Source of the DNA: a virus
Strand: one strand, 5' to 3'
DNA: 21,186 nucleotides
IMG/VR virus record: IMGVR_UViG_3300017713_000112
Coordinates: 1-21,186 of that record
Of this stretch, positions 2,066 through 18,413 are shown piece by piece. The notes beneath the pieces were generated by a model that was given only the letters and a program-made list of their open reading frames with translations, made no database searches and was not told the DNA's origin. The translations under genes and the position numbers were made by a program. Every line of letters begins with the position of its first letter. Positions within the stretch are counted from its first letter, which is position 1.

Positions 2066-5000
2066 ATGACCACACAAATAATAAAAGACACGTTTCTTAA
2101 TACCTATAAAGACGATTATAAAGATAGTGACAACTATTACAAAATCCTCTTCAATAATGCTCGGTCTTTGCAACAACGTGAACTTAACCAGATGCAGTCA
2201 ATTCTTACAAATGACATTGCACAGAATTCACAGTTTATTTTTTCTCAGGGTCAGGCATCTCAGGGTGGTGTATTAACAGTACTCAATAAAGTTAATTTTA
2301 TTAAATTAGACGCTACATCAGGAACAACAATTGATTCTCTTACAAACCCAACTACAGATCTAGTTGGAATAGTATTTACTGAATCTGACACAGGTGTAAA
2401 GTTTAGAGTTGGTAAAGTAGACGTTGCGACAGGTTCTACCAAGGCGACTTTGTATGGTGCGTATGTAGATGCCAACAATGCGACTGGTGAGGCAGATGAC
2501 GGTATTAAAATTACAGACGGTAAAACTCTTACTGGTACAGATGGCACTACACTGACAAGTTTTTCTGGTGGTGGTACGGCAGATCCGACAAAAGGGTTTG
2601 GTACTATTGCAACAATTAACTCTGGTAAATTTTATCTTGATGGTCACTTTGTTTTTGCTCCAGAGCAATCACTAACACTATCTCAATATACAAGTACCTA
2701 TACAGGAACAGTTGGATTTAGGGTTACTGAAGAAATTGTAACTTCAGCAGACGATAACGAATTATTTGATAACAGTGGTGCAACACTAAACACTGCATCA
2801 CCTGGCGCAGACAGACACAAAATTACTCTTACGTTTATTGACGAAGCAGACATTAGTGCCGGTGATTACTTTATCAAACAGGGTTCAATTGAGAATGGTA
2901 AAATTGCCTTCGCGGGGGCTGGGGGTGGTGGTCAAAGGGTCGCCGACCTGAATGGCCTTCTCGCTACATACCGTAGAGAAGAATCTGGTGACTATGTGGT
3001 CAGAAGATCATTTATAGACTTTGAAACAAATGCAGACAGCGATCAAAAATTTGACTTGACAATTGGTGATGGTAAGGCGTATATTAATGGTCACCGTTAT
3101 CACCAAAGAGCGCCTGTAACAGTAACAGAACTTAAACCTAGAACAACTGCAACTATCAATAACGGAGTAGCAATACCAGCCTTTGGTAACTATGTGGTTG
3201 CAACAAACTTTAATAGTAAAACGATCACAGATAAGATCTCTACTTTTGCCACGATTACATTAAAAAATGCGGTTACATGGGGTAGCACTTCAATTGGTAC
3301 TGCAAGAATTAAAGCAATCGAACCATTCGGTGCAAAATGGAAAGTATATCTTATGGATGTACAAATGGTTGTTGGATATAACTTTGGTGCGACTAAATCA
3401 ATGGGTGTTTCTGCGACTGATTACTTTAACGTAGAACAGACCAATGGCGTCGCTGAAATGAAAGATGTTAGAAATAACAATCTCTTCTTTGATCTTCCAA
3501 AAGAACGTCCTGCCTCATTGACAGACATTACATTGACCACACAGAGAATTGTGGCTGGTACTACAGACGCATCTGGTAACGTAACACTTGCACAATCTTT
3601 GATTGGTGGTTCTGGTAACACATATACTGATACAAGTAACTGGGTTTGTAACATCGATAGTGATGGTACAAGTAGGGCGCCTACGTATACACTTAACAGT
3701 GGTGGTGCAACTACTACAGTTGCATTGGGATCAGATGGTGGTAGTACTGCAATTGCCGTTGCGGTATTTGCACAGAAAACTGCAACTCCTGCCTCCAAAA
3801 CACTTACTAGTACTACAGCCACAATTGCACCAGCAACAGTAGATGGTGTAGCAAACTCCGTTCCTCTCGGACACGCGGATGTTTACGAAGTCACAGTTAT
3901 TAAAGATGCCACGGCTGCTGGTAATGATATTTCAGATAGATACGATCTGGATAATGGTCAGAGAGATAACTTCTATGATGCTGGTAAACTGATATTAAAA
4001 GGTGGTAAAACTGCGCCATCAGGAAACGTTTATGTTGAATTCAAATATTTTGCACATGGTACTGGAGACTTCTTCTCAGTAGACTCTTATACTGGTCAGA
4101 TTGCATATCACCTAATTCCAACTCACAGACAAGCGAATGGGGATATCATTCAACTTAGAGATGTGTTGGATTTCAGATCCAGAATGGATAATACTGGTAA
4201 CAACTTTACTGGAACTGGAAAAAAAGTTATTCCACTTCCAAGAAACAACGATAGTATTACTCTAGATGAGACTTACTATCAAGGACAGGCTGGTACAATA
4301 TTTCTCAATCAAAGTGGATTTTGTGGTATATATCTCGGAGATCCATCGGATAATCCTAGATTTTCAACAAAGGCAGATACGCCAGGATATATGAAAATTG
4401 CAACGGTCAACATCAATCCTTATATGTTAGATGATGAAGACTTGTCAATTGATTACGTCGATCATCCTAGATTTACAATGAAAGACATTGGGGATATCGA
4501 ACACAGACTTGACGAACTTGAAGAAGTGGTTGCAATGAACCAACTAGAACTTGCAACATCAACACTTGATGTTCTGGATAGTTCTGGTGCAAATAGATTG
4601 AAGTCGGGAATTACTGCCGATGACTTTAAAAACCACGCATTCTCAGATACTACCTTACCTGATTATCGGGCTGCAATTGATCCTGCCAGAAACGAATTAA
4701 GACCAGAGTTTGAGGCAAAACCAATTGAACTGTTATATTCTGCGGATAGTTCGACTAACACAGTTCTTGTTGGTGATAAAGTTATGTTAACTTACGGTCA
4801 TGCAGTTTGGAAGAATCAGTCAACTGCATCTCGGGCGGTTCCACTCAATCCTTTTGATATACAAATAATCACAGGTGATATTGAAATGTCACCAACATCA
4901 GATGCTTGGTATGATGATGTAACACTACCAGATAAAATTGTCAAGGGTGATACTCTTTTAGACAAATCTCAAACCAAACAGTTTAACAGTTGGGATTTTA

Positions 5001-7432
5001 ACTGGTCAGGTGTAAAGGCCGAAGATGTTAAAGACTACAAAGAAGGTCACGTATTTGCTTCCAAAACAAAACTAGGTGGAACATATAGTTCTGGTGGTAG
5101 TACAACTGCGGCTGGTCAACAGACGACTAATACGTATCAGAAATCTAGTACACAGTCACACTATATCAGTAAGATTTCAAGTGTACAAGAAAAAATTGGT
5201 GATACAAAAGTAAACCTTGTTTCTAAACCTTATATGAGATCCAGATTTGTTTCATTCCGCGCCACAGGACTAAGACCAAACACAGAATACTTTGCGTTCT
5301 TTGATGGTAAGAATGTTGACGATTGGGTAAACACTGAAACAGGTGTAGGCGGATTTGTTAGATTTTCATCTCTGGAGAGAGGAAACCCTTACTTAGATGT
5401 TGGTACAAAGTTTAGAACTGCAACACAATATCCATCAGCATTAGGTGGCCCAACTACAAACAAACGAACAGATGCGAATGGTGCAATCTCAGGATATTTC
5501 TTGATACCGCACACTTCTAGTATTAAATTTAAATCAGGTAAAAAAGTGTTTCAGTTGCAAGACACTAGTAAGTTCTCAAAACAGGGTGAGGACACAACAT
5601 TTACATCTTTTGCTAAGTTCTTTTTCTTGTCAGAAGGTACTATAAGAGAATCACAAAGTGAATATCTAGAGACACGTACATATCAACTTGCAAGTGGTAC
5701 AGTAGATGACTCGTCATTGATCTCGACTAAAGTGACTGAATTTGAACCAAGTTGTTTCATGCCTCACGCACTAGTAACGATGGCAGATGGTACAGAAAAA
5801 CCAATCTCTGAAATTGTTGTCGGTGATCAAGTAAAATCACCTACTAGAGAAGGTAAATTCAACACTGTCATGGAAATAGAAACACCTCAACTTGGCGATA
5901 GATTAGTATACGGTTGGAATGGTAAAGAACCATTTGTGTCAGAAGAACATCCACTCTGGATGGGGCCAGATGTCGGATGGGGTGCATTTAATCCTACAAC
6001 ATTATTTGAAAGAGAGTTTACAACTTTTGCTCAAGTAGTAAGAGAAGAACTAAAAGATGTTAGTGAACTTCGAAGTGGATCTGAACTAATTACATTGAAT
6101 GGAACAGAAACAATATCTGATCTTGTACCAGTAGAGTTACATCCACACACAACTTTGTATAACTTACTGTTAGACGGAGATAATACATATTTTTGTGAAG
6201 GGTATGTAGCACACAATAAATGTGGTGTACAAGTTGATGGAACCAAGTGTCCAGACGCGCCAGGTGGTGAGTGTTTCATTCCAGAAGCTCTAGTTCTTAT
6301 GTCAGATGGTTCTAGAAAAGAAATTCAACATGTGGAAATTGGTGACAAACTTATGGGTTGGAAAGGTGATGTGAATACTGTAGTAGACACACCGACATTT
6401 ACCCTTGGCACAAATAAAATACACGGTTTCAATGGTAAAGATCCATTCGTTACTTCAATGCATCCTATTATGACTAATAAAGGTTGGGCAAGTTTTGATC
6501 CAGAGGCCTATAGAAAAGATTGGTCAGAAGATTATGATCTAGTTGCATCTGAAAACGAAGATGGAATTATACATGAACTAAAAGAAGGTGATTCTGTTGC
6601 ATGGAAGATCGGAACTGATGACGTAGTTTATCAGTCAATGGATAATCTAACAACTAGGTCAGAAAATCCAGACTTTAAAGTATACAACTTAACTTTGGAC
6701 GGTGATCACACATTTGTAGTTGAAGATATCGTTGTTCACAATAAAGAAGGGTGCTTTATAGGAACCACTCAAATCGAAATGGCCGATTACTCAATGAAGA
6801 ATATTATTGATGTAAAAATCGGTGATAGAGTGTTCAACTGGGATCGTTCACAGATTAACACTGTTATGTGGGTCGAAAGAGTTCCAAACAATCCTTGGAA
6901 AGAATTGTATTCTCCTTCTGCTGATCACGAACCATTTGCGACAACAAACCATCCAATGTATATGGGTAATACTCTTGCGGTTGTAGATAGTGAAGAAGTT
7001 GAAAACAAATATCCATGGCTCGGTAAAATGAAAAAATGGGTTCAACCAAATGTGATAAAATCAGATGTTAATGTATATAACTTATGGGTTGACGGAGATG
7101 GTACGTTTACAGTTAACGGATTTGGTACTACATCAATTATCGGTGACGGTGGTTTTGTAAGATCTGCCGCTGTAAATGGACTACTAGAAGAAAAACACGT
7201 GCAAAACGCTCTAATGTATTTCCAAGGTACAAAACGTAGATCATATGGTGCATACATAATCAATAAGGCAATGACTGATGTTAATTCACGATTGTTGGCC
7301 AATATGATCAAATCTAAAACTGGTTTAAAGGTACTGGGTATTGGAGCAAGTATGTTAGGCAGTGTACTATGTCTTAAAAAACCTAAAATTAAATTAGGAA
7401 AAACACTAAGAACAAAAGTTGAGGAAGTATAA
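2066..7432 (+). CDS. DUF4815-type baseplate/fibre protein with three tandem Hint domains
   Basis: This 1788-residue structural protein has an N-terminal part resembling the DUF4815 family of large T4-like marine phages: DTFLNTYKDDY..., REL.QMQSIL near the start, LRDVLDFRSR near 700, PRFTMKDIGDIEHRLDELEE near 800, and RSRFVSFRATGLRPNTEYFAFFDG near 1055-1080. The exact virion position is not known to me, but it lies beside gp8, so baseplate-proximal fibre or wedge periphery is likely. From residue 1230 three Hint domains follow (annotated separately), then a 104-residue tail with a hydrophobic stretch (1756-1770) and a very basic end. AGGGA five bases before the ATG is the ribosome site. The stop overlaps the next start (TAATG). 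Related proteins usually continue into a PLAQTF... module, which here is the next gene. Confidence 0.8.
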   Translation: MTTQIIKDTFLNTYKDDYKDSDNYYKILFNNARSLQQRELNQMQSILTNDIAQNSQFIFSQGQASQGGVLTVLNKVNFIKLDATSGTTIDSLTNPTTDLVGIVFTESDTGVKFRVGKVDVATGSTKATLYGAYVDANNATGEADDGIKITDGKTLTGTDGTTLTSFSGGGTADPTKGFGTIATINSGKFYLDGHFVFAPEQSLTLSQYTSTYTGTVGFRVTEEIVTSADDNELFDNSGATLNTASPGADRHKITLTFIDEADISAGDYFIKQGSIENGKIAFAGAGGGGQRVADLNGLLATYRREESGDYVVRRSFIDFETNADSDQKFDLTIGDGKAYINGHRYHQRAPVTVTELKPRTTATINNGVAIPAFGNYVVATNFNSKTITDKISTFATITLKNAVTWGSTSIGTARIKAIEPFGAKWKVYLMDVQMVVGYNFGATKSMGVSATDYFNVEQTNGVAEMKDVRNNNLFFDLPKERPASLTDITLTTQRIVAGTTDASGNVTLAQSLIGGSGNTYTDTSNWVCNIDSDGTSRAPTYTLNSGGATTTVALGSDGGSTAIAVAVFAQKTATPASKTLTSTTATIAPATVDGVANSVPLGHADVYEVTVIKDATAAGNDISDRYDLDNGQRDNFYDAGKLILKGGKTAPSGNVYVEFKYFAHGTGDFFSVDSYTGQIAYHLIPTHRQANGDIIQLRDVLDFRSRMDNTGNNFTGTGKKVIPLPRNNDSITLDETYYQGQAGTIFLNQSGFCGIYLGDPSDNPRFSTKADTPGYMKIATVNINPYMLDDEDLSIDYVDHPRFTMKDIGDIEHRLDELEEVVAMNQLELATSTLDVLDSSGANRLKSGITADDFKNHAFSDTTLPDYRAAIDPARNELRPEFEAKPIELLYSADSSTNTVLVGDKVMLTYGHAVWKNQSTASRAVPLNPFDIQIITGDIEMSPTSDAWYDDVTLPDKIVKGDTLLDKSQTKQFNSWDFNWSGVKAEDVKDYKEGHVFASKTKLGGTYSSGGSTTAAGQQTTNTYQKSSTQSHYISKISSVQEKIGDTKVNLVSKPYMRSRFVSFRATGLRPNTEYFAFFDGKNVDDWVNTETGVGGFVRFSSLERGNPYLDVGTKFRTATQYPSALGGPTTNKRTDANGAISGYFLIPHTSSIKFKSGKKVFQLQDTSKFSKQGEDTTFTSFAKFFFLSEGTIRESQSEYLETRTYQLASGTVDDSSLISTKVTEFEPSCFMPHALVTMADGTEKPISEIVVGDQVKSPTREGKFNTVMEIETPQLGDRLVYGWNGKEPFVSEEHPLWMGPDVGWGAFNPTTLFEREFTTFAQVVREELKDVSELRSGSELITLNGTETISDLVPVELHPHTTLYNLLLDGDNTYFCEGYVAHNKCGVQVDGTKCPDAPGGECFIPEALVLMSDGSRKEIQHVEIGDKLMGWKGDVNTVVDTPTFTLGTNKIHGFNGKDPFVTSMHPIMTNKGWASFDPEAYRKDWSEDYDLVASENEDGIIHELKEGDSVAWKIGTDDVVYQSMDNLTTRSENPDFKVYNLTLDGDHTFVVEDIVVHNKEGCFIGTTQIEMADYSMKNIIDVKIGDRVFNWDRSQINTVMWVERVPNNPWKELYSPSADHEPFATTNHPMYMGNTLAVVDSEEVENKYPWLGKMKKWVQPNVIKSDVNVYNLWVDGDGTFTVNGFGTTSIIGDGGFVRSAAVNGLLEEKHVQNALMYFQGTKRRSYGAYIINKAMTDVNSRLLANMIKSKTGLKVLGIGASMLGSVLCLKKPKIKLGKTLRTKVEEV
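5753..6217 (+). other. Hint domain 1 (intein/Hedgehog-like), residues 1230-1384
   Basis: The domain starts at Cys1230 with CFMPHALVTMADGT and then ISEIVVGDQV, the N-terminal block of Hint domains. The block-B histidine is in FVSEEHPLW (usual T-x-x-H, here S-E-E-H). The C-terminal block is LYNLLLDGDNTYFCEGYVAH and ends in His1383-Asn1384. The next residue is Lys, not Cys/Ser/Thr, so classical protein splicing is not expected. N-terminal thioester formation and Asn cyclisation with cleavage remain possible, as in bacterial intein-like domains. No homing endonuclease domain is present. Confidence 0.87.
6272..6742 (+). other. Hint domain 2, residues 1403-1559
   Basis: Begins at Cys1403 (CFIPEALVLMSDGS...IGDKL), has the canonical T-x-x-H motif in FVTSMHPIM, and ends VYNLTLDGDHTFVVEDIVVH-Asn1559, followed by Lys1560. 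Catalytic Cys, block-B His, penultimate His and terminal Asn are all visible, but a +1 nucleophile is missing. An 18-residue linker (1385-1402) carrying two cysteines separates it from domain 1. Confidence 0.87.
6752..7117 (+). other. Hint domain 3, shorter, residues 1563-1684
   Basis: Begins at Cys1563 (CFIGTTQIEMADYS...IGDRVFNW), only three residues after domain 2 ends. The T-x-x-H motif is intact in FATTNHPMYM. The C-terminal block VYNLWVDGDGTFTVNG is recognisable but lacks the terminal His-Asn; the sequence reads on as VNGFGTTSIIGDGG. It could therefore activate its N-terminal Cys bond but not cleave at its own C-terminus by Asn cyclisation. About 35 residues shorter than domains 1 and 2. 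The boundary at 1684 is approximate. Confidence 0.75.
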
Positions 7433-9234: not shown

Positions 9235-10398
9235 ATGGCAAGAGAGTTTATAACACTAGACACTAGAGTCGATGCGTTCAAAGACACATTCAATAGTCTT
9301 ACCGACAAGGTTGGCGATCTTGCTCTCCTTACTACTACAGGTGACTCCGATTTAGTTCAGGCAATCAACGAACTTGATAGTGATGTTGGGGCTCCTGCCA
9401 GTCTTACAACTACTACTAAACAAAATATTGTTGCATCAATCAATGAACACGACGCGGAACTAGGTACTATTACATCTGGTGCAATGGGAACCACTGCATC
9501 CACAGTATCTACTGCAATAAAAGAATTAGACAGTGACCGAGACAGACTTGTAACATATACAGGTATGCCTACTGCAATTACTGGAATGGACAACAGTACA
9601 GGTAACGTCTTATCGACTGCCGTACTAAATCTAGACAGTGCATTGGGTAACAGATCCGCACTGACAACAACCGCCGATCAAGATGTCGTAGTTGCGATTA
9701 ACGAATTGGACGCAGAACTTGGAACAATATCCGCTGGTGCGATGGGAACTACCGCATCCACCGTATCCACTGCGATAAAAGAGTTAGATTCTGATAGAGA
9801 TAGACTTGTAACATATACTGGTTTGCCTGCGGCTATCACAGGAATGAGTAACGCGACTGGTAACGTTATATCTACATCTTTACTTTCACTTGATAGTGCG
9901 GTGGGTCTTAGAACAAATCTTACTACGACTGCAAAACCAACTCTGGTTGCGGCGATTAACGAACTACATGCAGAGATGGGTAACGTTACTGCTGGTGCGA
10001 TGGGAACATCTGCATCGACAATTGTAACTGCGATTGCCGAACATGAGACACAAATTAACGCAAACAAAACAGCAGTAGACAGTGACCTCGGTACAGTCAA
10101 CGCATCGAATATGGGAACAGTCGCACACACAGTTGTGGCAGCGATTAACGAACTCCACACACAACTGGATACGTTAGATAGTGATGCGGCTGCCAACCCA
10201 GTTGGTGCAATTACCTCATTGACTACTACAGTTAAATCTTCAATTGTTAATGCGATAAACTCCCTAGATAGTGATGTAGGTACAAGAACAAGTTTAAATA
10301 CTACGGCAGATCAAAACCTAGTAGTTGCAATCAACGAAGTTTCTAATCGTGCAATTAATGTTAAAGATAGTGACGGTACACTACTGAACACAGCTTAA
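9235..10398 (+). CDS. Repetitive tail-fibre-like protein with LTTT...AINEL repeats
   Basis: A 387-residue protein made almost entirely of repeats. The unit LTTT-x5-V-x-AINEL-x4-G appears six times, and a longer 86-residue unit is repeated at exact spacing. Such short alternating Thr-rich and helical AINEL units are typical of the shafts of trimeric phage fibres, and the protein lies among fibre genes, so a fibre or whisker role is inferred. There is no signal peptide, no membrane segment and no enzymatic motif. The ATG follows the upstream stop by one base, with AGAAGAG as ribosome site. DSD occurs at many unit borders. Attachment point on the virion is unknown. Confidence 0.7.
   Translation: MAREFITLDTRVDAFKDTFNSLTDKVGDLALLTTTGDSDLVQAINELDSDVGAPASLTTTTKQNIVASINEHDAELGTITSGAMGTTASTVSTAIKELDSDRDRLVTYTGMPTAITGMDNSTGNVLSTAVLNLDSALGNRSALTTTADQDVVVAINELDAELGTISAGAMGTTASTVSTAIKELDSDRDRLVTYTGLPAAITGMSNATGNVISTSLLSLDSAVGLRTNLTTTAKPTLVAAINELHAEMGNVTAGAMGTSASTIVTAIAEHETQINANKTAVDSDLGTVNASNMGTVAHTVVAAINELHTQLDTLDSDAAANPVGAITSLTTTVKSSIVNAINSLDSDVGTRTSLNTTADQNLVVAINEVSNRAINVKDSDGTLLNTA
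9451..10047 (+). repeat. 258-bp (86-residue) in-frame tandem repeat, 2.3 copies
   Basis: Copies begin at 9451, 9709 and 9967 (HDAELG, LDAELG and LHAEMG contexts), each exactly 258 bases apart. Each contains GAMGT-A-ST, TAIKELDSDRDRLVTYTG, ITGM, TGNV and LTTT-AINEL. The third copy stops resembling the others after about 27 residues. Codons differ between copies, so the duplication is not very recent. Confidence 0.85.
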
Positions 10399-10407
10399 GG
10401 GTTTAAT

Positions 10408-12012
10408 ATGTCAATAATAGACGGACTACTCAAACTAGACGGATCAGATGGTAGTCTGAAGAAGATGACTGCCGCGGAAGAGAACTATCTCGCACACCAA
10501 GCAGGATTGCAACTCGCTGATGCGGGCCCAGCACAAATTGCGTCTATTACATCCTCATCTTCTGGTAATGCCACAGTCGGTACATATACGAACACGACTA
10601 TGGATGGTAACGTTGGCGATCACGATGCATCCGCAAGAAATGTCACCACAACAAATACAACCTTATATCAGAAAGAAGGAACTGCCGCAACTAGTGGCGT
10701 TAATTATTTTCAACCAGTTATATTTGATAAGTCAGATACTAAAACAATTAAGGTTGTAAACGATGCGGAGATGGCCGTTGTTGTTGATCGATTATTGTTG
10801 ACTATCTTTGCAAATGATTATGCTGGTACATACAAAATAGGATCATCTGCACCAAGTAGTGATTACTCTGTACATATTTCAAATGTTTTCTCTGACACAC
10901 GTGCAGACGGTACTACAGTAAACTATAGTATATACAAAAGAGATACCTTTACGGAACCCACTAAAATTAGTCCTATGCGACTATTGAACAGTAGTGGTGA
11001 CCTACAGGCAATGACGCCTGCACAGATTAAATATACATTTGGAAATGTCGCAAAAACTAGAATTATGAATGGCTCCGCTGGTGTAGGAACTTATCAACTT
11101 AGATCATCCGCACAGGGTGTTCCAACTGATTCTGGTACATGGGTTGCGAAAGGTACTGCAACCGATATAAGAAATACACTTTCAGATGAAAACTATACAC
11201 GAGACAGTACCGACAGTTTTGCGGGAAATTATTCGGGCGCTGCATATCAAACCTTTTATCAAACATCATATCAAGGTGAGTATGACGGCAACTATACTGG
11301 TCAGTATGTTGGTAACTACGCTGGTAACTACGATGGATCTGGAGATTTTACACGCAACGCACTAGAAAATTATGCGGTGGACTACGAAGGAAACTTTGAT
11401 GGTGCCTCGCCTGGAGATGCAGGCGGTGGCTTTGAAGCAATATACGTTGGTAACTATGAATCCGATTACACTGGTAACTTCATTGGTAACTACGATGGTG
11501 TTTATTCAAGAACTAGCACAAGATCCGAAGAAGAAACCTTTACACGTGTCACCGTTATAAACTATTCTGGAGTCATAGGTGATGGGTCTACTGTTTATTC
11601 GCAAGTATCATATACAGGTGATTATACTGGTACGTATACTGGTAACTATGTGGGTGAATATGAAGGTCAATTCACACGAGACCTTACTTCTAATTTTATT
11701 GGTAACTTTGAAAGAAACTATACTGCAAATTATGTTCCTACATATGTTGGTACTTACGAAGAACACTATGTAGGCGACTATACTGGTAACTATGAGGGTG
11801 GTGCAGATTATATAGGGGGTTATAGTGGTAACTACGATGGCGAGTATATTGGTGATTTTGAAGGTGATTTTACATCAAACTATGTCAGTAACTATACGGC
11901 AAATTATATAGGGGATTATACAGGGAACTTCGTCGGGAACTACGCAGGCTCAACAATTCAATCAGGAGTTCAAACGATAGAGACATATACACTTTACGTC
12001 AGAACTGCATAA
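10408..12012 (+). CDS. Tyr-tetrad repeat protein A, short paralogue
   Basis: A 534-residue protein with three parts. Residues 1-263 form a globular-looking domain shared with the next gene (EENYLAHQAGLQLA, TYTNT, SSAPSSDYSV, DTRADGT, GTWVAKG). Residues 264-512 form a degenerate array of four-residue units of the x-G-N/D-Y type, with several irregular insertions (for example DGSGDF and SGVIGDGSTVY). A 22-residue cap follows (IQSGVQTIETYTLYVRTA). No secretion signal, catalytic motif or membrane segment is seen. AAGGG six bases before the ATG is the ribosome site. Position among fibre genes suggests a virion fibre or adhesin. Similar repeats occur, as far as I recall, in uncharacterised proteins of marine T4-like phages; no function is assigned here. 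Confidence 0.72.
   Translation: MSIIDGLLKLDGSDGSLKKMTAAEENYLAHQAGLQLADAGPAQIASITSSSSGNATVGTYTNTTMDGNVGDHDASARNVTTTNTTLYQKEGTAATSGVNYFQPVIFDKSDTKTIKVVNDAEMAVVVDRLLLTIFANDYAGTYKIGSSAPSSDYSVHISNVFSDTRADGTTVNYSIYKRDTFTEPTKISPMRLLNSSGDLQAMTPAQIKYTFGNVAKTRIMNGSAGVGTYQLRSSAQGVPTDSGTWVAKGTATDIRNTLSDENYTRDSTDSFAGNYSGAAYQTFYQTSYQGEYDGNYTGQYVGNYAGNYDGSGDFTRNALENYAVDYEGNFDGASPGDAGGGFEAIYVGNYESDYTGNFIGNYDGVYSRTSTRSEEETFTRVTVINYSGVIGDGSTVYSQVSYTGDYTGTYTGNYVGEYEGQFTRDLTSNFIGNFERNYTANYVPTYVGTYEEHYVGDYTGNYEGGADYIGGYSGNYDGEYIGDFEGDFTSNYVSNYTANYIGDYTGNFVGNYAGSTIQSGVQTIETYTLYVRTA
11197..11943 (+). repeat. Degenerate Tyr-tetrapeptide array in protein A
   Basis: Residues 264-512. Runs such as DGNY TGQY VGNY AGNY keep strict four-residue spacing. 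They are interrupted by six- to eleven-residue units (DGSGDF, PGDAGGGF, SGVIGDGSTVY, EGGADY) and by one TRDS unit at the start. It is much shorter and more eroded than the array of the next gene. Confidence 0.9.
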
Positions 12013-12034: not shown

Positions 12035-15000
12035 ATGTCTACAGCACACATACCCCTTCTCTCACAAGGCACAAACGGTGACCTTATACAGTTCTCGGAT
12101 AGTGCCGAGAATTATCTTGCGTATCGTATGGGATTGCATCTCGCTTCCATGTCGCACGATTCAGATGCATCCAGATTAAATATAACTGCTGGCGATTCTG
12201 CAAGTCATCCTCTTGCAATCGGTACATACACAAATACAAAATTTAATGAAGCAGTAGGATCACACGCTGGTTTTACGACGGCAACTAATACTGTTACAAT
12301 GTATCAGGTAGATGGAACAGTTGCACAAACAGGTGGTGATTATTTCAGACCCATCGGATTTGCAGACGGACACGCAGATCATAGAATAGAAGAAATGAAA
12401 GACAGTGATCTGACTGTATTGACAGACAGATTGTTGACTAAGGCGTTTACTGGAGATTATCCAGGCACATATAAAATTGCATCATCGGCACCTTCTGCAC
12501 AGTATAGTGTTGCAGACTCAGATATATTTACAGATACAAGAGCAGACGGAACAAGTGTAGGATATGACTTGTATGTCAGAACTGCAATGTCTGCACCCAC
12601 TACCAAAAAACCATTTAGAATTGTTAGAGATCCAGATTCAGACGGGCCATCGTTAAATATTGGTACAAACTTTACTGGTCTTAAAGAAATGTCTGATGCA
12701 CAAACGCAATACACACTAGGTACTCAGGGTGCAAACAGGATTATCGCTGGTGGTATTGGAACATATCAGTTCAGAACTGCAACGCAAGGTGTTCCCAGTG
12801 CAACAGGTACATGGGTTGCAAAGGGTGTTGCATTAGATACAAAACAAGAGACTGCTGATCAGAACTATACGCGAGATAGTACTAGAGACAGTACTAGAGA
12901 TAGTACTCAGGACTTTACACACGCATATGTGGGTGATTATGCGATTAACTTTGAAGGTAATTATGTAGGTGAATATACTGGTACATCTACAAGAACATCA
13001 ACTGTTGCATACGAAGCAGACTACGTTGGGGATTATGTCGGTATATTCCAACGAAACTACACACGAGATAGTACACAAAACTTTGTAGGAAACTATGAAG
13101 CAGATGGCTATGCTGGTGATTATGTTGGTCAATATACTTCTGACTATGTTGGTGAGTATCTTGGTAATTATGATGCAACTTATGAAACTGCATATGAAGG
13201 GCCTGATTATGCTGGTAATTATGAATCCGATTATGTCGGTGATTATGGTGGTGACTATCAGGGTGATTATGTTGGCGGTAACTTTGAAGGTAATTACACT
13301 GGAAACTTTGAAGGTAATTATGAAAGTTTTTACGAAACTAATTATACTAGCAATTATGGAACTACTTATGATGGTGATTATGTTCAACAGTTTGTTGGCG
13401 ATTACGCTGGTAACTATGAACCAAATTATGCAGGCGAGTACGTTCCAAATTATATTAGTAATTATGTTAGTAACTACGAAGGCAATTACGTTGGTGAGTA
13501 CGCTGGTGAATATGTTGGTAACTATGAACCAAACTATGTCGGAAACTATGAACCCAATTACGTAGGAAACTATGAGGTAGATTTTGCTGGAGATTATATT
13601 GGTCAATATACTAGTAACTATGTAAGTAATTACGAAGGTGATTATGTTCAACAGTTCGTAGGAAACTATGAAGGTAATTTTATTGCGAACTATGGGGCTG
13701 GATACGAGGCAGTCTACGATGGTAATTATGTTGGAGAATACGCTGGGGATTACGTAGGCGAGTATGTTGGAGAATATACAGGTGCCACATTCGATGGTGA
13801 CTATGCTGGTAACTATGTCGGTAATTATATCGGAGAATATGCGGGCGATTATGTTCCAGACTACGTTGGTGACTATACAGGCGACTATGGTGGTAATTAC
13901 GCTGGTAACTATATCGGAGAATATGCGGGCAATTATGTTCCAAACTATACAGGCAACTACACTGGTAATTACGAAGGAACTTACAACCGAGATAGTACTA
14001 CTGCCTTTGCTGGTAACTATACACCAAACTATACAGGCAACTACGCTGGTCAGTACACAAGAGATAGTACACGAAACTCTCAACGGACTTCGACACGAAA
14101 CTCTCAACGGACTTCGACACGCGACTCAACCAATAACTTTACAGGCAACTTTGCTGGTAACTTTGCTGGTAACTTCTTAGGTGACTATACTGGTAACTTT
14201 GCTGGTAACTTCGTAGGTGACTTTGTTGGTAACTTCACTGCATTTTTTAGTGGGTACGGTGGATCAAACAGGGCAACAAACTATACGAGAACATCTACTC
14301 GAACTTCAACTAGAAACTCACAAAGAACATCTACACGTACATCCACACGTGATTCGACAACAGTGTTCACAGGTAACTTTGCTGGTAACTTCGTAGGTGA
14401 CTACACTGGTAACTTCTTAGGTGACTATACAGGTAACTTTGTTGGTAACTATGATGCAGTGTACACTCGTGCAAGTGTTGGTGCTGTCTTTACTGGTGAC
14501 TATACAGGTAACTTTGTTGGTAATTATTCGGGTAATTATACTAGAGATAGTACTCGTGCAAGTGCTGGTGCAGCCTTTGTCGGTGATTATGCTGGTAATT
14601 ATGCTGGTAACTATATTGGAGAATATGCGGGCGGCTATGCTGGTAACTATGACGCTGCTGCGTTTGTAGGAGACTACGGTGGTAACTATGCAGGCAACTA
14701 TATTGGAGAATACGTAGGAAACTACGAACCAAATTATGCAGGCAACTATGGTGGTAATTACGCTGGTAATTATGCAGGCGATTACATCGGTCAGTACACT
14801 GCAAATTATGTGTCTGAATATGAAGCCGCATATGCAACAGATTTCGCTGGTAACTACGACGGTAACTATGTTGGTGCATATGATGCAGCATATCAAACAA
14901 CCTATGATGGTAACTATGTGGGTGAATATACTACAGCCTACGATGGTGACTATACAGGTGCAGTGTTTGCTGGTGACTATACAGGTGATCCGTATGCTGG

Positions 15001-15718
15001 TGATTACTCAGGTAACTATGCTGGTGATTACATTGGCAATTACGATGCAGCATATCAGACTAATTATGAAGCAGCGGCATACGTCGGTGATTATACAGGG
15101 GCAGTATTTGTCGGAGATTATGCTGGTAATTATGACGGCAACTATACTGGTCAATATGATGCCGCCTATGAATCAGACTACGTGTCAAATTATGTTTCTA
15201 ACTTTACAAGAGATAGTACGGATGATTTTACAAGAATATCAACTGTAAATTATCAGGGCGAGTATATTGGAGAATATGGTGGTAACTATACTTCAAACTA
15301 TATTGGAAACTATATCTCGAACTACATCAGTAATTATCAATCTGATTATGTTGGTGATTATGCTGGTAATTATCAAACTGTTTATGATGGCAATTATCTT
15401 GGAAACTATATTCCAACCTATGATGGAGATTATACAGGTAATTTTGAAGGTAATTACACAGCCGATTATGAGGGTGAATATGATGGTAACTACACTGCAA
15501 ATTATAGTACGGATTACGTAGGAGACTATGAAGGCACCTTTGCAGGCGATTACATAGGAGATTATGGTGACAATTATGAAGGTAACTACACAGGAAACTA
15601 TGTGGGGAACTTTATTGGTAATTATGTTGGTAATTATGTTGGTAACTATTCTGGAATTACCATGCAATCATCCAGCGCAACGATAGAAACGTATACACTC
15701 TACGTAAGAGTTTCTTGA
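12035..15718 (+). CDS. Giant Tyr-tetrad repeat protein B
   Basis: A 1227-residue paralogue of the preceding protein. Residues 1-278 are the shared N-terminal domain (AENYLAYRMGLHLA, TYTNT, SSAPSAQYSV, DTRADGT, GTWVAKG). Residues 279-1205 are a continuous array of 218 four-residue and 11 five-residue units. Residues 1206-1227 are the shared cap ending TIETYTLYVRVS. The array is rich in Gly, Tyr, Asn and Asp, locally Arg/Ser/Thr, with only two widely separated lapses. There is no signal peptide, cysteine pattern or enzyme motif. The start aligns with that of the paralogue although there is no good ribosome site; an exact late promoter lies just upstream. A long virion fibre or adhesive filament is the most likely role, inferred from position and composition. 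Confidence 0.75.
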   Translation: MSTAHIPLLSQGTNGDLIQFSDSAENYLAYRMGLHLASMSHDSDASRLNITAGDSASHPLAIGTYTNTKFNEAVGSHAGFTTATNTVTMYQVDGTVAQTGGDYFRPIGFADGHADHRIEEMKDSDLTVLTDRLLTKAFTGDYPGTYKIASSAPSAQYSVADSDIFTDTRADGTSVGYDLYVRTAMSAPTTKKPFRIVRDPDSDGPSLNIGTNFTGLKEMSDAQTQYTLGTQGANRIIAGGIGTYQFRTATQGVPSATGTWVAKGVALDTKQETADQNYTRDSTRDSTRDSTQDFTHAYVGDYAINFEGNYVGEYTGTSTRTSTVAYEADYVGDYVGIFQRNYTRDSTQNFVGNYEADGYAGDYVGQYTSDYVGEYLGNYDATYETAYEGPDYAGNYESDYVGDYGGDYQGDYVGGNFEGNYTGNFEGNYESFYETNYTSNYGTTYDGDYVQQFVGDYAGNYEPNYAGEYVPNYISNYVSNYEGNYVGEYAGEYVGNYEPNYVGNYEPNYVGNYEVDFAGDYIGQYTSNYVSNYEGDYVQQFVGNYEGNFIANYGAGYEAVYDGNYVGEYAGDYVGEYVGEYTGATFDGDYAGNYVGNYIGEYAGDYVPDYVGDYTGDYGGNYAGNYIGEYAGNYVPNYTGNYTGNYEGTYNRDSTTAFAGNYTPNYTGNYAGQYTRDSTRNSQRTSTRNSQRTSTRDSTNNFTGNFAGNFAGNFLGDYTGNFAGNFVGDFVGNFTAFFSGYGGSNRATNYTRTSTRTSTRNSQRTSTRTSTRDSTTVFTGNFAGNFVGDYTGNFLGDYTGNFVGNYDAVYTRASVGAVFTGDYTGNFVGNYSGNYTRDSTRASAGAAFVGDYAGNYAGNYIGEYAGGYAGNYDAAAFVGDYGGNYAGNYIGEYVGNYEPNYAGNYGGNYAGNYAGDYIGQYTANYVSEYEAAYATDFAGNYDGNYVGAYDAAYQTTYDGNYVGEYTTAYDGDYTGAVFAGDYTGDPYAGDYSGNYAGDYIGNYDAAYQTNYEAAAYVGDYTGAVFVGDYAGNYDGNYTGQYDAAYESDYVSNYVSNFTRDSTDDFTRISTVNYQGEYIGEYGGNYTSNYIGNYISNYISNYQSDYVGDYAGNYQTVYDGNYLGNYIPTYDGDYTGNFEGNYTADYEGEYDGNYTANYSTDYVGDYEGTFAGDYIGDYGDNYEGNYTGNYVGNFIGNYVGNYVGNYSGITMQSSSATIETYTLYVRVS
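12869..15649 (+). repeat. 927-residue Tyr-tetrapeptide array (229 units)
   Basis: Reading from TRDS at residue 279 to VGNY ending at residue 1205, every residue falls into a unit of four (218 units) or five (11 units: EADGY, EGPDY, VGGNF, TGATF, VGAVF, AGAAF, DAAAF, TGAVF twice, TGDPY, EAAAY). 203 units end in Tyr or Phe and 24 in Ser; only SGYG and GSNR break the rule. The usual unit is x-G-N/D-Y. Ser-ending units are mostly T-R-D/N/T-S. At DNA level this is a 12-base period with synonymous variation. Confidence 0.95.
14069..14116 (+). repeat. Exact 24-bp tandem duplication inside the array
   Basis: Two adjacent identical 24-base copies (14069-14092 and 14093-14116), each beginning acacgaaactctcaacgg and encoding R-N-S-Q-R-T-S-T. 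Exact identity, unlike the synonymous variation elsewhere in the array, points to a recent slippage or recombination event. Confidence 0.9.
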
Positions 15719-15755: not shown

Positions 15756-15780
15756 ATTGCAAATACAATAGGTGAAAATA

Positions 15781-16230
15781 ATGAAAAAAGAATGGCGACA
15801 TCCTTTCTGGGAAAACTACCAAAAAGATAGGATTACATGCAAACTGGTCATTACACACGAAAATGGTGAGGTAACTAGTTCTACTTCTACCGTAAGTAAA
15901 TATGATAAAAACGGTGAGATCACAAAAGATTACAATGATGTTATCGCAGCGACTCCAGTCGAAAAAATTAATAAGAACACGGAAGAACGCGAACAACGTC
16001 ATAAAGACAATAGACTTAATGACAAACGCAAACAAGCAGAACGAGAAGCGGCTAGAAAACTAGAACAACTGTTTAACGCAAAACTTGAAGTGTTTGAGAT
16101 AGAATCTATAAAGAGTTCTACAAACAGAAAAGCAAAATCAAAAATTCGTAGATCTAAAAATCAGTATGAAATGATGGCATATGCTATTATGTTGATCCAA
16201 GAAGAAGATGCAAAGAATGAGTCCAAGTAA
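15781..16230 (+). CDS. Hypothetical basic protein with long helix
   Basis: A 149-residue protein that I do not recognise functionally. Residues 4-55 (EWRHPFWENYQKDRITCKLV and on) may be a small beta domain. Residues 61-110 are strongly charged (EEREQRHKDNRLNDKRKQAE) and likely one long helix or coiled coil. The end SKIRRSKNQYEMMAYAIMLI is basic then hydrophobic. ATG at 15781 is preferred over GTG at 15772 because AGGTG lies six bases upstream of the ATG. It is the first gene after the sigma70-type promoter and overlaps the start of the next gene, so it is probably co-expressed with the enzymes that follow. Confidence 0.7.
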   Translation: MKKEWRHPFWENYQKDRITCKLVITHENGEVTSSTSTVSKYDKNGEITKDYNDVIAATPVEKINKNTEEREQRHKDNRLNDKRKQAEREAARKLEQLFNAKLEVFEIESIKSSTNRKAKSKIRRSKNQYEMMAYAIMLIQEEDAKNESK

Positions 16231-17005
16231 AGGTTTTGTACTAGTCGCATCAAAAAAGATCGCGTTCTACTACTCCGCATGTAACTTGATGGAATGCATC
16301 AAAGATTATATGCCAGATGCAAATGTTACACTCTTCTGTTCACCAGAATTCAAAGACCACAGATGTGCAGACTTTGATCAGGTGTTTGATGTAGAAAATC
16401 CAGACTTCCTTCGAGAAAAATTATATGGTATGGCAAATTCACCATATGACATTACCATGTATATGGACGCAGATGGAGAAGTTGTACACGAAGATATCGC
16501 AACAGTATTTGACCAGTTGGAAGACTGTGATATGAAGTTTGTGGTATTGAAAGACGATCCTATATCACTCAAGTCATTTGTTGAAAAAGACTTTCAGTGT
16601 AATGGCGTCAAAGAAACAATGACATTGTGCGGTGGGGTTTGTTTGTACGATATGAGAAACCCTCTTGTTCGAGACTTTATGCAAGACTGGTACAAGATGT
16701 TTTGGATACAAGAACATAGACATACTGTTCCAGTAAACATGCATTGGTGGAAAGATCATGGAATAAAATCCTCTATGTTGAGATGGGATCAGTTTACACT
16801 GTGGTGGTTGACAAATAAAATACCTAAATATAAAGACCTAAAGATTGGAGAGTTCGACGATAACTATAGGTGGAATTGGTTTACTAGTTTTAAAAGAACG
16901 CCTGATGGTAAATTTAATTTGGTAAAAAAAGATCCAGTGTTTATTCATCATTCGTCAACTATGAATAAGACAGTAGACCAGTTTAAAAACGAGGTTAAAT
17001 TATGA
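16217..17005 (+). CDS. Glycosyltransferase-like protein (GT-A fold candidate)
   Basis: A 262-residue protein probably transferring a sugar from a nucleotide-sugar donor, judged by its pattern rather than by close family recognition. It opens with a beta strand GFVLVASKKIAFYYSA. It carries YMDADGEVV (Asp84-x-Asp86, the metal-binding DxD motif) after a hydrophobic strand, has a mid-protein GGVCLYDM strand, and ends with PVFIHHSS, a late histidine position seen in GT8-like enzymes. ATG 16217 is chosen because AAGAAGA lies about ten bases upstream; ATG 16208 is an alternative adding three residues. It overlaps the previous gene, and its stop overlaps the next start (ATGA). Acceptor is unknown: a virion protein or a host glycan are both possible. 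Confidence 0.6.
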   Translation: MSPSKGFVLVASKKIAFYYSACNLMECIKDYMPDANVTLFCSPEFKDHRCADFDQVFDVENPDFLREKLYGMANSPYDITMYMDADGEVVHEDIATVFDQLEDCDMKFVVLKDDPISLKSFVEKDFQCNGVKETMTLCGGVCLYDMRNPLVRDFMQDWYKMFWIQEHRHTVPVNMHWWKDHGIKSSMLRWDQFTLWWLTNKIPKYKDLKIGEFDDNYRWNWFTSFKRTPDGKFNLVKKDPVFIHHSSTMNKTVDQFKNEVKL

Positions 17006-17661
17006 AAGATGTTAAAATAAACAATCAAAGTGTTTTAGATGCTTTAAACGAATACAAGGATTGGTTGGTTCCAAAATTTCACAACGGTGAGATGGCCAAA
17101 GATCTAGTTCTCCACTGCAAGGATCAAGAAAGAGATCGATGGTTGGACGACGGATATCTAGAAAGACAGATGGCAAAAGGTAGAGGTCACGAAGGGTTTC
17201 CAGAATCTATGCAAGTCTTTCATGGTACGATGCCAGATGGTGCTGGTGCGATGGATCAAATAATGGTTCCATACAGAGATAAAGGCGAAGAATTAAATAA
17301 AAAATTGATGACAGAGTTATCTGCAAGAAAAAATACATTGGTAACATGTTATCCCCCTGGCGGATGGATCTCTTGGCATAACAACGCAAATGCGTCTGGA
17401 TATAATGTTCTATTTACATGGTCTGAAACTGGTGACGGTTGGTTTGATTATTGGGATATGGAAAAGAAAGAACGTGTTCGTGTTCCAGACGTAAAAGGTT
17501 GGCAATGCAAGATGGGTTACTTTGGTTCTTATGATCAACCAGAAAGAGTCTGTTGGCACGCTGCATCTACTGACTGTTTGAGAATAACTTGTGCATACGT
17601 ATTTGCAGAAGCAGAAACAATCTGGCAGGACGTGGTTGACGACATAGAAGAGAACTGGTAA
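17002..17661 (+). CDS. 2OG-Fe(II) oxygenase-like protein with H-x-N motif
   Basis: A 219-residue protein with the layout of a double-stranded beta-helix 2-oxoglutarate/Fe(II) dioxygenase. TCYPPGGWISWHNNANASGY holds His126-x-Asn128 where H-x-D is usual, WHAASTDCLRITCAYVF supplies a distal His186 and Arg194 (candidate 2-oxoglutarate ligand), and GWFDYWD forms the strand between. Similar proteins with YPPGG-WHNNANA are familiar to me from T4-like cyanophages. The likely reaction is hydroxylation of a protein or small molecule; the substrate is unknown. Starts within the upstream stop codon (ATGA) and ends in TAATG with the next gene, so the three enzymes are tightly coupled. Asn for Asp may alter or weaken iron binding. 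Confidence 0.6.
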   Translation: MKDVKINNQSVLDALNEYKDWLVPKFHNGEMAKDLVLHCKDQERDRWLDDGYLERQMAKGRGHEGFPESMQVFHGTMPDGAGAMDQIMVPYRDKGEELNKKLMTELSARKNTLVTCYPPGGWISWHNNANASGYNVLFTWSETGDGWFDYWDMEKKERVRVPDVKGWQCKMGYFGSYDQPERVCWHAASTDCLRITCAYVFAEAETIWQDVVDDIEENW

Positions 17662-18413
17662 TGTTCAATATAGTTTGTGTTAAGGTTGGCACAAAGTATA
17701 AATCAAACGATGTAAATAGACTATATAGAATGGTTGATCTGAATATGGAACTGCCATTCAACTTCTATTGTTTTACAGACGACGAGGAAGGGTTACTCTT
17801 ACCCATAAAGAAAAAGAGAGTATATGATTTGTCTCTTGACTCTTACTGGTGGAAGATGACAATATTTGACAAGACTATGTGGGATAACAACGAACCAACG
17901 TTGTATCTTGACCTTGATGTTATCATACAGAATGATATAACACAGTTATTTGGACTTGTCAACAGTGAACTATTGAGAATAGGTTATATCGGAACAGACG
18001 ATCTCATTACTAAACATGAGAATGAACTTGGACTGAAATATATGGCCGAAGTTAATTCCTCTGTTATGTTATTTCATCCACAAGACATGCACTTTATATA
18101 CAAGAAGTTTATCAAAGATGCAACCTATAATATGGAAGAATATTTTGGAATGGACAGATATCTAACTGCCGTTCATCCATATGATATGACACATTTTAAA
18201 TACTGGCAAGACTGGTATTCCGCATGGAAAGCATATCCAGCCTCACATAAGGAGAAAAAATCTCCTTGGCAAACAATGCAAACAAGTGATGGTGAAGTTT
18301 TGATAATGATGATCCCAGACGCATCTATTTGTATTATGAACGCTCCAACAACTGTCTCATCAAAACAAGAATGGGAAGTCTTTGATCAGGTATTTTCTTT
18401 TTATTATAAATAG
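17661..18413 (+). CDS. Glycosyltransferase, GT8-like
   Basis: A 250-residue protein with clear GT-A features. N-terminal strand FNIVCVKVGTKY, then FNFYCFTDD near residue 34. YWWKMTIFD at 62-70 resembles the lysine region before the DxD of related enzymes. LYLDLDVIIQNDI carries the metal-binding Asp84-x-Asp86 followed by the typical N-D-I. VNSSVMLFHP at 131-140 matches the acceptor-side N-S-S/G-V motif. It should transfer a sugar from a nucleotide donor with Mn2+ or Mg2+, in the cytoplasm. The ATG overlaps the previous stop by one base (TAATG). Its last codons overlap a late promoter serving the next gene. The acceptor is not visible from sequence; the adjacent Tyr/Ser/Thr-rich repeat proteins are candidates by position only. 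Confidence 0.72.
   Translation: MFNIVCVKVGTKYKSNDVNRLYRMVDLNMELPFNFYCFTDDEEGLLLPIKKKRVYDLSLDSYWWKMTIFDKTMWDNNEPTLYLDLDVIIQNDITQLFGLVNSELLRIGYIGTDDLITKHENELGLKYMAEVNSSVMLFHPQDMHFIYKKFIKDATYNMEEYFGMDRYLTAVHPYDMTHFKYWQDWYSAWKAYPASHKEKKSPWQTMQTSDGEVLIMMIPDASICIMNAPTTVSSKQEWEVFDQVFSFYYK
18405..18412 (+). promoter_or_regulatory. T4-type late promoter TATAAATA (distal)
   Basis: Exact late consensus overlapping the stop codon of the GT8-like gene. Predicted transcription start near 18418, giving a leader of about 54 bases to the ATG at 18472. Confidence 0.7.

Follow-up and report, generated by a model that had tools for sequence, protein, structure and literature searches.

The 21,186-base virus record IMGVR_UViG_3300017713_000112, which was analysed at its full length and which we call the window, carries T4-like structural genes for a gp8-like wedge protein, a tail fibre and an L-shaped fibre assembly protein. 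It also carries putative fibre gene A, an open reading frame (ORF) of 1227 amino acids (12,035–15,718; all features named here are on the plus strand). The open frame, a parse into repeat units and the homologues divide its product into an N-terminal base domain of three modules, a long array of four-residue units and a C-terminal strand. In the following we ask how this array is folded.

The array occupies residues 279–1205 (12,869–15,649). A first-pass annotation, made from the sequence alone, had split these 927 residues into 218 tetrads and 11 pentads, with 203 of the 229 units ending in Tyr or Phe. Recomputation returned exactly these numbers (unit ends: 165 Tyr, 38 Phe, 24 Ser, 1 Gly, 1 Arg). 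Of the aromatic residues, 89% are followed by another aromatic exactly 4 residues on, compared with 5% or less for a distance of 1, 2, 3 or 5 residues. Position 2 of the tetrad is Gly in 130 of 218 cases, and position 3 is Asn, Asp or Glu in 174 of 218. Only SGYG and GSNR (residues 739–746) end in neither Tyr/Phe nor Ser, and these two units are placed at the array midpoint (742). The annotation had called the array uninterrupted; this is true of the parse, but the word hides the two midpoint units, which form the apex.

Identical array units are encoded by different codons: the 12 VGDY units have 10 DNA sequences, the 9 TRDS units have 7 and the 7 VGEY units have 7. Such variation points to selection at the protein level. 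Thus the protein pattern is selected, as the annotation had also concluded, and DNA slippage alone does not explain it. Short direct DNA repeats are present inside the array. Inverted repeats are absent from the array DNA; hence the mirror relation between the two halves of the array resides in the protein.

Counted in units, the array closes without gaps into one antiparallel hairpin. The outgoing arm has 114 units, 4 of them pentads (residues 279–738; 12,869–14,248). The returning arm also has 114 units, 7 of them pentads (residues 743–1205; 14,261–15,649). Between the arms lies SGYG (residues 739–742; 14,249–14,260), the sole unit left unpaired after folding, within a turn of about SGYGGSNR (14,249–14,272). 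Mirror tests in residue space gave a weak signal for the window because pentads shift the residue count, a problem that disappears when units are counted.

The folded window is highly ordered. All Arg/Ser-type tetrads (26 of 26) lie opposite aromatic ones, none lies opposite another of its type, and there are no Arg-Arg rungs. All nine Pro tetrads lie opposite pentads, compared with a random mean of 0.43 and a maximum of 4 in 20,000; other centres reach at most 3. A proline facing a bulge would be expected, since proline cannot donate a backbone hydrogen bond. For the four direct-pair classes, the mutual information reaches 1.12 at the centre and averages 0.04 elsewhere (standard deviation 0.13, maximum 0.44). 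From the window sequence alone, coupling at the mirror centre ranks first of 161 (z = 8.3). In addition, most rungs with an xGEY unit have Ala, Gly or Ser at position 1 of the opposite unit, and the partner of VQQF is always DGNY.

The same register is found in relatives. A scan of viral contigs for four xG(N/D)(Y/F) units, written as a degenerate DNA pattern, gave at least 120 stretches. At least about 110 distinct array ORFs or loci in uncultured-virus contigs follow one common plan: an N-terminal domain of about 260 residues, an array and a C-terminus like IETYTLYVRTA. A sister protein, L003 on contig IMGVR_UViG_3300027801_000313, is 83% identical in the N-terminal domain and has an array of 1048 residues. 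This array closes at 129 + 129 units without gaps, and its centre coupling ranks first of 182. The window and L003 differ by 16 units per arm, and both arms have a matching 9-unit insertion or deletion some 30 units away from the base. Gap-free closure of the whole array occurs in many members (for example, 110 + 110 units in L117 and 71 + 71 in L016). Short members of the family include L097 with 393 amino acids and L123 with 455.

In 28 complete relatives, the pooled mirror correlation of Arg-type and aromatic tetrads is sharply minimal at offset 0, with a mean of −0.29 compared with −0.05 when the arms of other proteins are used. Within 60 residues of the base, these relatives have 3 Arg:Arg rungs where 47 are expected. 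Offset 0 is the global correlation minimum over all centres in nine proteins. When the code is learned solely from other subfamilies, the true centre takes first place for 21 of 31 proteins and for 7 of 13 subfamilies; the parallel-pairing scores in these are negative or near zero. Across 991 rungs, GY:RR occurs 409 times (171 expected), RF:SY 172 times (27 expected) and RR:RR 4 times (42 expected). The sequence statistics show that the arms are antiparallel, in exact unit register, with the apex at the midpoint.

In 16 registered proteins, the excess coupling is 0.22, 0.34 and 0.24 at the even residue sums 2, 4 and 6, and 0.14–0.16 at the odd sums 3, 5 and 7. Direct partners and same-face diagonal neighbours couple, and the opposite face couples more weakly, which is the signature of an antiparallel beta ladder. 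The array probably adopts a beta conformation. Among direct pairs at position 4, Tyr:Tyr is seen 440 times (307 expected), Arg:Phe 120 (35), Phe:Arg 94 (28), Phe:Ser 84 (35) and Ser:Phe 60 (29); Arg:Arg, Arg:Ser and Ser:Ser do not occur there. At position 2 we find Arg:Gly 240 times (153 expected), Arg:Ser 61 (24) and Gly:Thr 44 (29), and for position 3 to position 1, Gln:Asp 11 times (less than 1 expected). Hence the direct-pair code consists of Tyr:Tyr, Phe:Arg, Phe:Ser, Arg:Gly and Arg:Ser.

Both ends of the array lead to the base domain. AlphaFold2 (AF2) models the N-terminal domain confidently to about residue 270 (predicted local distance difference test, pLDDT, 81 overall and mostly >90). 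Module 1 (residues 4–95; 12,044–12,319) is defined by the model and by a profile that resembles that of module 2 (hhalign, E = 5e-6). Module 2 (residues 100–186; 12,332–12,592) is a complete hairpin with strands at 157–168 and 174–182 that ends in DLYVRTA, its second strand. In the model, modules 1 and 2 are ordinary intrachain hairpins. Module 3 (residues 194–278; 12,614–12,868) aligns with module 2 (hhalign, E = 5.5e-12) and lacks the last strand.

We propose that the missing strand is TIETYTLYVR at the C-terminus (residues 1216–1225; 15,680–15,709). Appending the protein's own C-terminal strand to module 3 raises the hhalign score from 57.0 to 68.5, and 20 column-shuffled C-termini in the same test give a mean of 55.7 and a maximum of 62.4. 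Judged by this profile comparison, the C-terminal strand is homologous to the last strand of module 2. If the C-terminus supplies the missing strand of module 3, then the array occupies a hairpin loop, and the chain has to run out of the domain and back into it. We also observed that in one subfamily with YTGFYTG/YSGSRNYSGNY arrays (L019, L026, L072 and L074) the C-terminus reads STVKLWIRTA and the module 2 strand LWQKTA, a Tyr-to-Trp change in both homologous strands; no Arg code was detected in these four.

The array midpoint is also where relatives carry additional domains. The largest inserted domain lies over the midpoint in 15 of 22 proteins, compared with 5.9 expected, although the relatives are not independent. 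Members free of inserts have midpoint turns such as AGGGKSGD, AGGGKGGD, LGFRGGRS and IGASGNYN, at the place of SGYGGSNR in the window. In a Pfam search of the inserted domains, the sole match was Laminin_G_3 (lectin-like, concanavalin-like; E = 2.5e-9) in L121. The L121 array protein is partial, with an ORF open at both ends and several inserts, so that its lectin may lie at the tip or elsewhere.

To explain these observations, we propose that the array protein belongs to a phage tail fibre and that its shaft consists of a single giant beta-hairpin complementary to itself, a reading that we consider very probable. The chain would leave a base domain of three tandem modules through the opened hairpin of the third module and run out as the tetrad arm. 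A glycine-rich tip at mid-sequence would reverse it, the second arm would run back antiparallel to the first and exactly in register, unit by unit, and module 3 would be completed by the C-terminal strand. The cross-ladder code would pair Tyr with Tyr, Phe with Arg or Ser, Arg with Gly or Ser, Gly with Thr or Ala, and Pro with a one-residue bulge (the pentad). The tip would be the distal end, and the domains inserted there in relatives may bind the host receptor, a role suggested by the context and the inserts. A straight shaft would measure about 150 nm (114 rungs of four residues at 3.3 Å), which is of the order of the T4 long fibre, and coiling may shorten it.

Several points weigh against this proposal. 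The fibre role is deduced from the gene context. For the C-terminal 220 residues with 44 homologues, AF2 gave a pLDDT of 43 and no strands; perhaps it failed because the opposite arm is absent from that piece. The class code learned elsewhere ranks the window centre only 13th of 183, and most window rungs are xGNY:xGNY, which are uninformative for that code. Neither code nor register is evident in the YTGFYTG-type subfamily (L019, L026, L072, L074) or in the relative from phage C48C1 with its many inserts, although these also follow the family plan. A paralogue directly upstream of gene A shares the plan and has a short irregular array in which no arm register emerged. Finally, sequences within a subfamily are related, and the counts of rungs and proteins are not independent events.

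The pairing code does not by itself say which chain provides the partner, because in sequence statistics intrachain and interchain partners look alike. The fibre could be a homotrimer of three intertwined hairpins in which each outgoing arm pairs with the returning arm of a neighbouring chain. Most known phage fibres are trimers, it would be unusual for a two-stranded ribbon of about 460 residues to stand alone, and AF2 failed on a monomer. We regard intertwining as a serious possibility that falls short of being probable. It is a variant of the antiparallel code and not an alternative to it. Since a two-stranded ribbon would lack strength on its own, we infer a bundle of several hairpins, possibly trimeric, in either arrangement.

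Two straight chains could also pair head to tail over their full length, each arm with the opposite half of the other chain, which would leave a base domain at both ends. Such an antiparallel homodimer predicts the same coupling at i + j = constant as the hairpin. It leaves the glycine-rich turn or inserted domain at the exact midpoint unexplained, and in the base domain itself AF2 models modules 1 and 2 as hairpins within one chain. We therefore consider it unlikely.

Even less likely is a one-way four-residue beta-solenoid or sheet fibre without pairing between arms, the main idea of the first-pass annotation. The strict four-residue period fits it, as do the 8- or 12-residue supercycles of some relatives. 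It predicts none of the mirror coupling, the Pro:pentad pairing, the complete lack of Arg:Arg rungs, the equal growth of both arms or the mid-sequence turns. What we find instead of a solenoid is a pair of antiparallel arms that match unit for unit around a turn at mid-sequence, and the two ends of the array lead to one N-terminal domain. Separately, a 12-residue solenoid turn of three tetrads, suggested by the pattern in C48C1, was rejected since the class spacing in relatives varies between 2, 3 and 4 units and there is no fixed turn.

A disordered, phase-separating or amyloid-like repeat of low complexity is very improbable. It would account for the low AF2 confidence and for the Tyr/Gly/Asn-rich composition, but an exact register and, across more than 100 rungs, a choice of Tyr or Phe and of Gly or Arg that depends on the partner require a defined structure. 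Of the options that the annotation had left open, a fibre remains likely, given the adjoining T4-like baseplate and tail-fibre genes, and phase separation is disfavoured. DNA slippage or an assembly artefact, for which the short direct repeats might speak, is negligible in view of the synonymous variation, the intact frame, a mirror that exists at the protein level, the sister protein on another contig and, among the matches listed, at least about 110 ORFs with this plan on other contigs.

Neither the array protein nor its N-terminal domain has a match in Pfam, PHROG or PDB, in line with the annotation, which knew of no characterised fold with so long a strict four-residue period. Pfam and PHROG, fibre families included, also match none of 55 homologous N-terminal regions. 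Against PDB, phmmer gave no match and the N-terminal domain profile reached at best E = 0.18. The confident N-terminal model has no fold match in PDB or BFVD at E <0.2 (best Foldseek E in PDB, 0.58). Among 50,697 records of deposited phages there is one clear relative, the hypothetical protein WJE88074.1 of C48C1 (Kyanoviridae), which is 29% identical over 96% of the query and shares base domain, tetrad array and C-terminal strand. This protein (L001:14001-24044) has several inserted domains along its array, and an insert stretch of about 90 residues is directly repeated. A match in phage Riverwalk was set aside (26% identity, no annotated gene beneath). The 106 pattern matches in 84,980 bacterial and archaeal genomes are unrelated short repeats, none with the base domain or the C-terminal strand. 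Searches of the literature on tetrapeptide-repeat fibres, on C48C1 and on antiparallel repeats in fibres turned up no relevant work.

The genes around gene A are those of a T4-like virus. A gp8 baseplate wedge protein (678–2057; phrog_438, 1.3e-75) has its best relatives in phage C48C1, pelagiphages and cyanophages. A tail fibre protein (9235–10,398; phrog_25848, 5.6e-23) contains repeats built around ELDSDxG...LTTTxKxxLVxAINEL, and the L-shaped tail fibre assembly protein matches phrog_3304. The upstream paralogue B (10,408–12,012; 534 amino acids) is 46% identical to gene A and has the same base domain, a GDGS turn (residues 387–395) at the midpoint of its short array and the C-terminal strand ETYTLYVRTA. 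Downstream (15,772–18,413) lie four genes that recur beside array genes: a 152-amino-acid protein, GT-like 1, an oxygenase-like protein and GT-like 2, found in at least 70, 65, 58 and 16 loci, respectively, the first three thus in most loci. The oxygenase-like protein has an HNNAN...H...R pattern and resembles 2-oxoglutarate oxygenases, and the sole family match in this cassette is that of GT-like 2 to phrog_1962. The cassette proteins may modify the fibre. Further upstream, the C-terminal half of a DUF4815-type baseplate protein (2066–7432; phrog_358) contains three Hint/intein-like domains (starts CFMPHALV, CFIPEALV and CFIGTTQI; ends VAHNK and VVHNK), which is odd for a single baseplate protein.

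If our proposal is correct, more than 100 rungs of the shaft are specified by a legible code that depends on the partner and is in spirit close to base pairing, and the shaft could serve protein design as a register-exact, programmable scaffold. The expected receptor-binding site of these viruses would shift from the C-terminus to mid-sequence. How units are gained and lost at mirrored positions of both arms becomes an evolutionary question. Members of the family are frequent in viral contigs from the environment and nearly absent among deposited phages. We think it likely that this family, which occurs in a large group of uncultured T4-like viruses, represents a new class of protein fibre: one chain that closes on itself like a zip over hundreds of residues by a near-digital code (three complementary types of tetrad pair plus bulge:Pro), with arms forced to co-evolve, including their insertions, and a receptor-binding tip at mid-sequence. 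Within the libraries and literature searched, this architecture has no described precedent.

Known systems share parts of it. Pentapeptide-repeat proteins and other beta-solenoids are likewise built on a strict short repeat in which aromatic or hydrophobic residues recur periodically. They run one way without mirror complementarity, whereas the array shows mirror coupling and matches no Pfam repeat model. The C48C1 protein differs in its length of 3347 amino acids and its several inserts.

In SMC, Rad50 and other antiparallel coiled-coil hairpin proteins, alpha-helical heptad arms have both ends in a base domain and a hinge at mid-sequence. The likeness is one of topology only: ends in one base domain, antiparallel arms in register and a mid-sequence hinge or tip. 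Their arms are alpha-helical heptad coiled coils, whereas here Gly/Asn/Tyr tetrads pair by a ladder-type code. Neither coiled-coil heptads nor an ABC ATPase head was found: the array has a four-residue period, the protein has no Pfam match, and the base domain matches no fold in PDB or BFVD at E <0.1. Homology was not found.

The T4-type long tail fibre proteins gp34 and gp37 and the short fibre gp12 run one way, from a proximal N-terminus to a distal C-terminal tip. Like them, the array protein has a long repeat shaft, is encoded among the baseplate and tail-fibre genes of a T4-like virus and has inserted or terminal domains that are likely receptor-binding. A sequence or profile match to the T4-like long fibres was not found. 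In contrast to these fibres, the anatomy of the array protein argues for a tip at mid-sequence and a C-terminus at the base.

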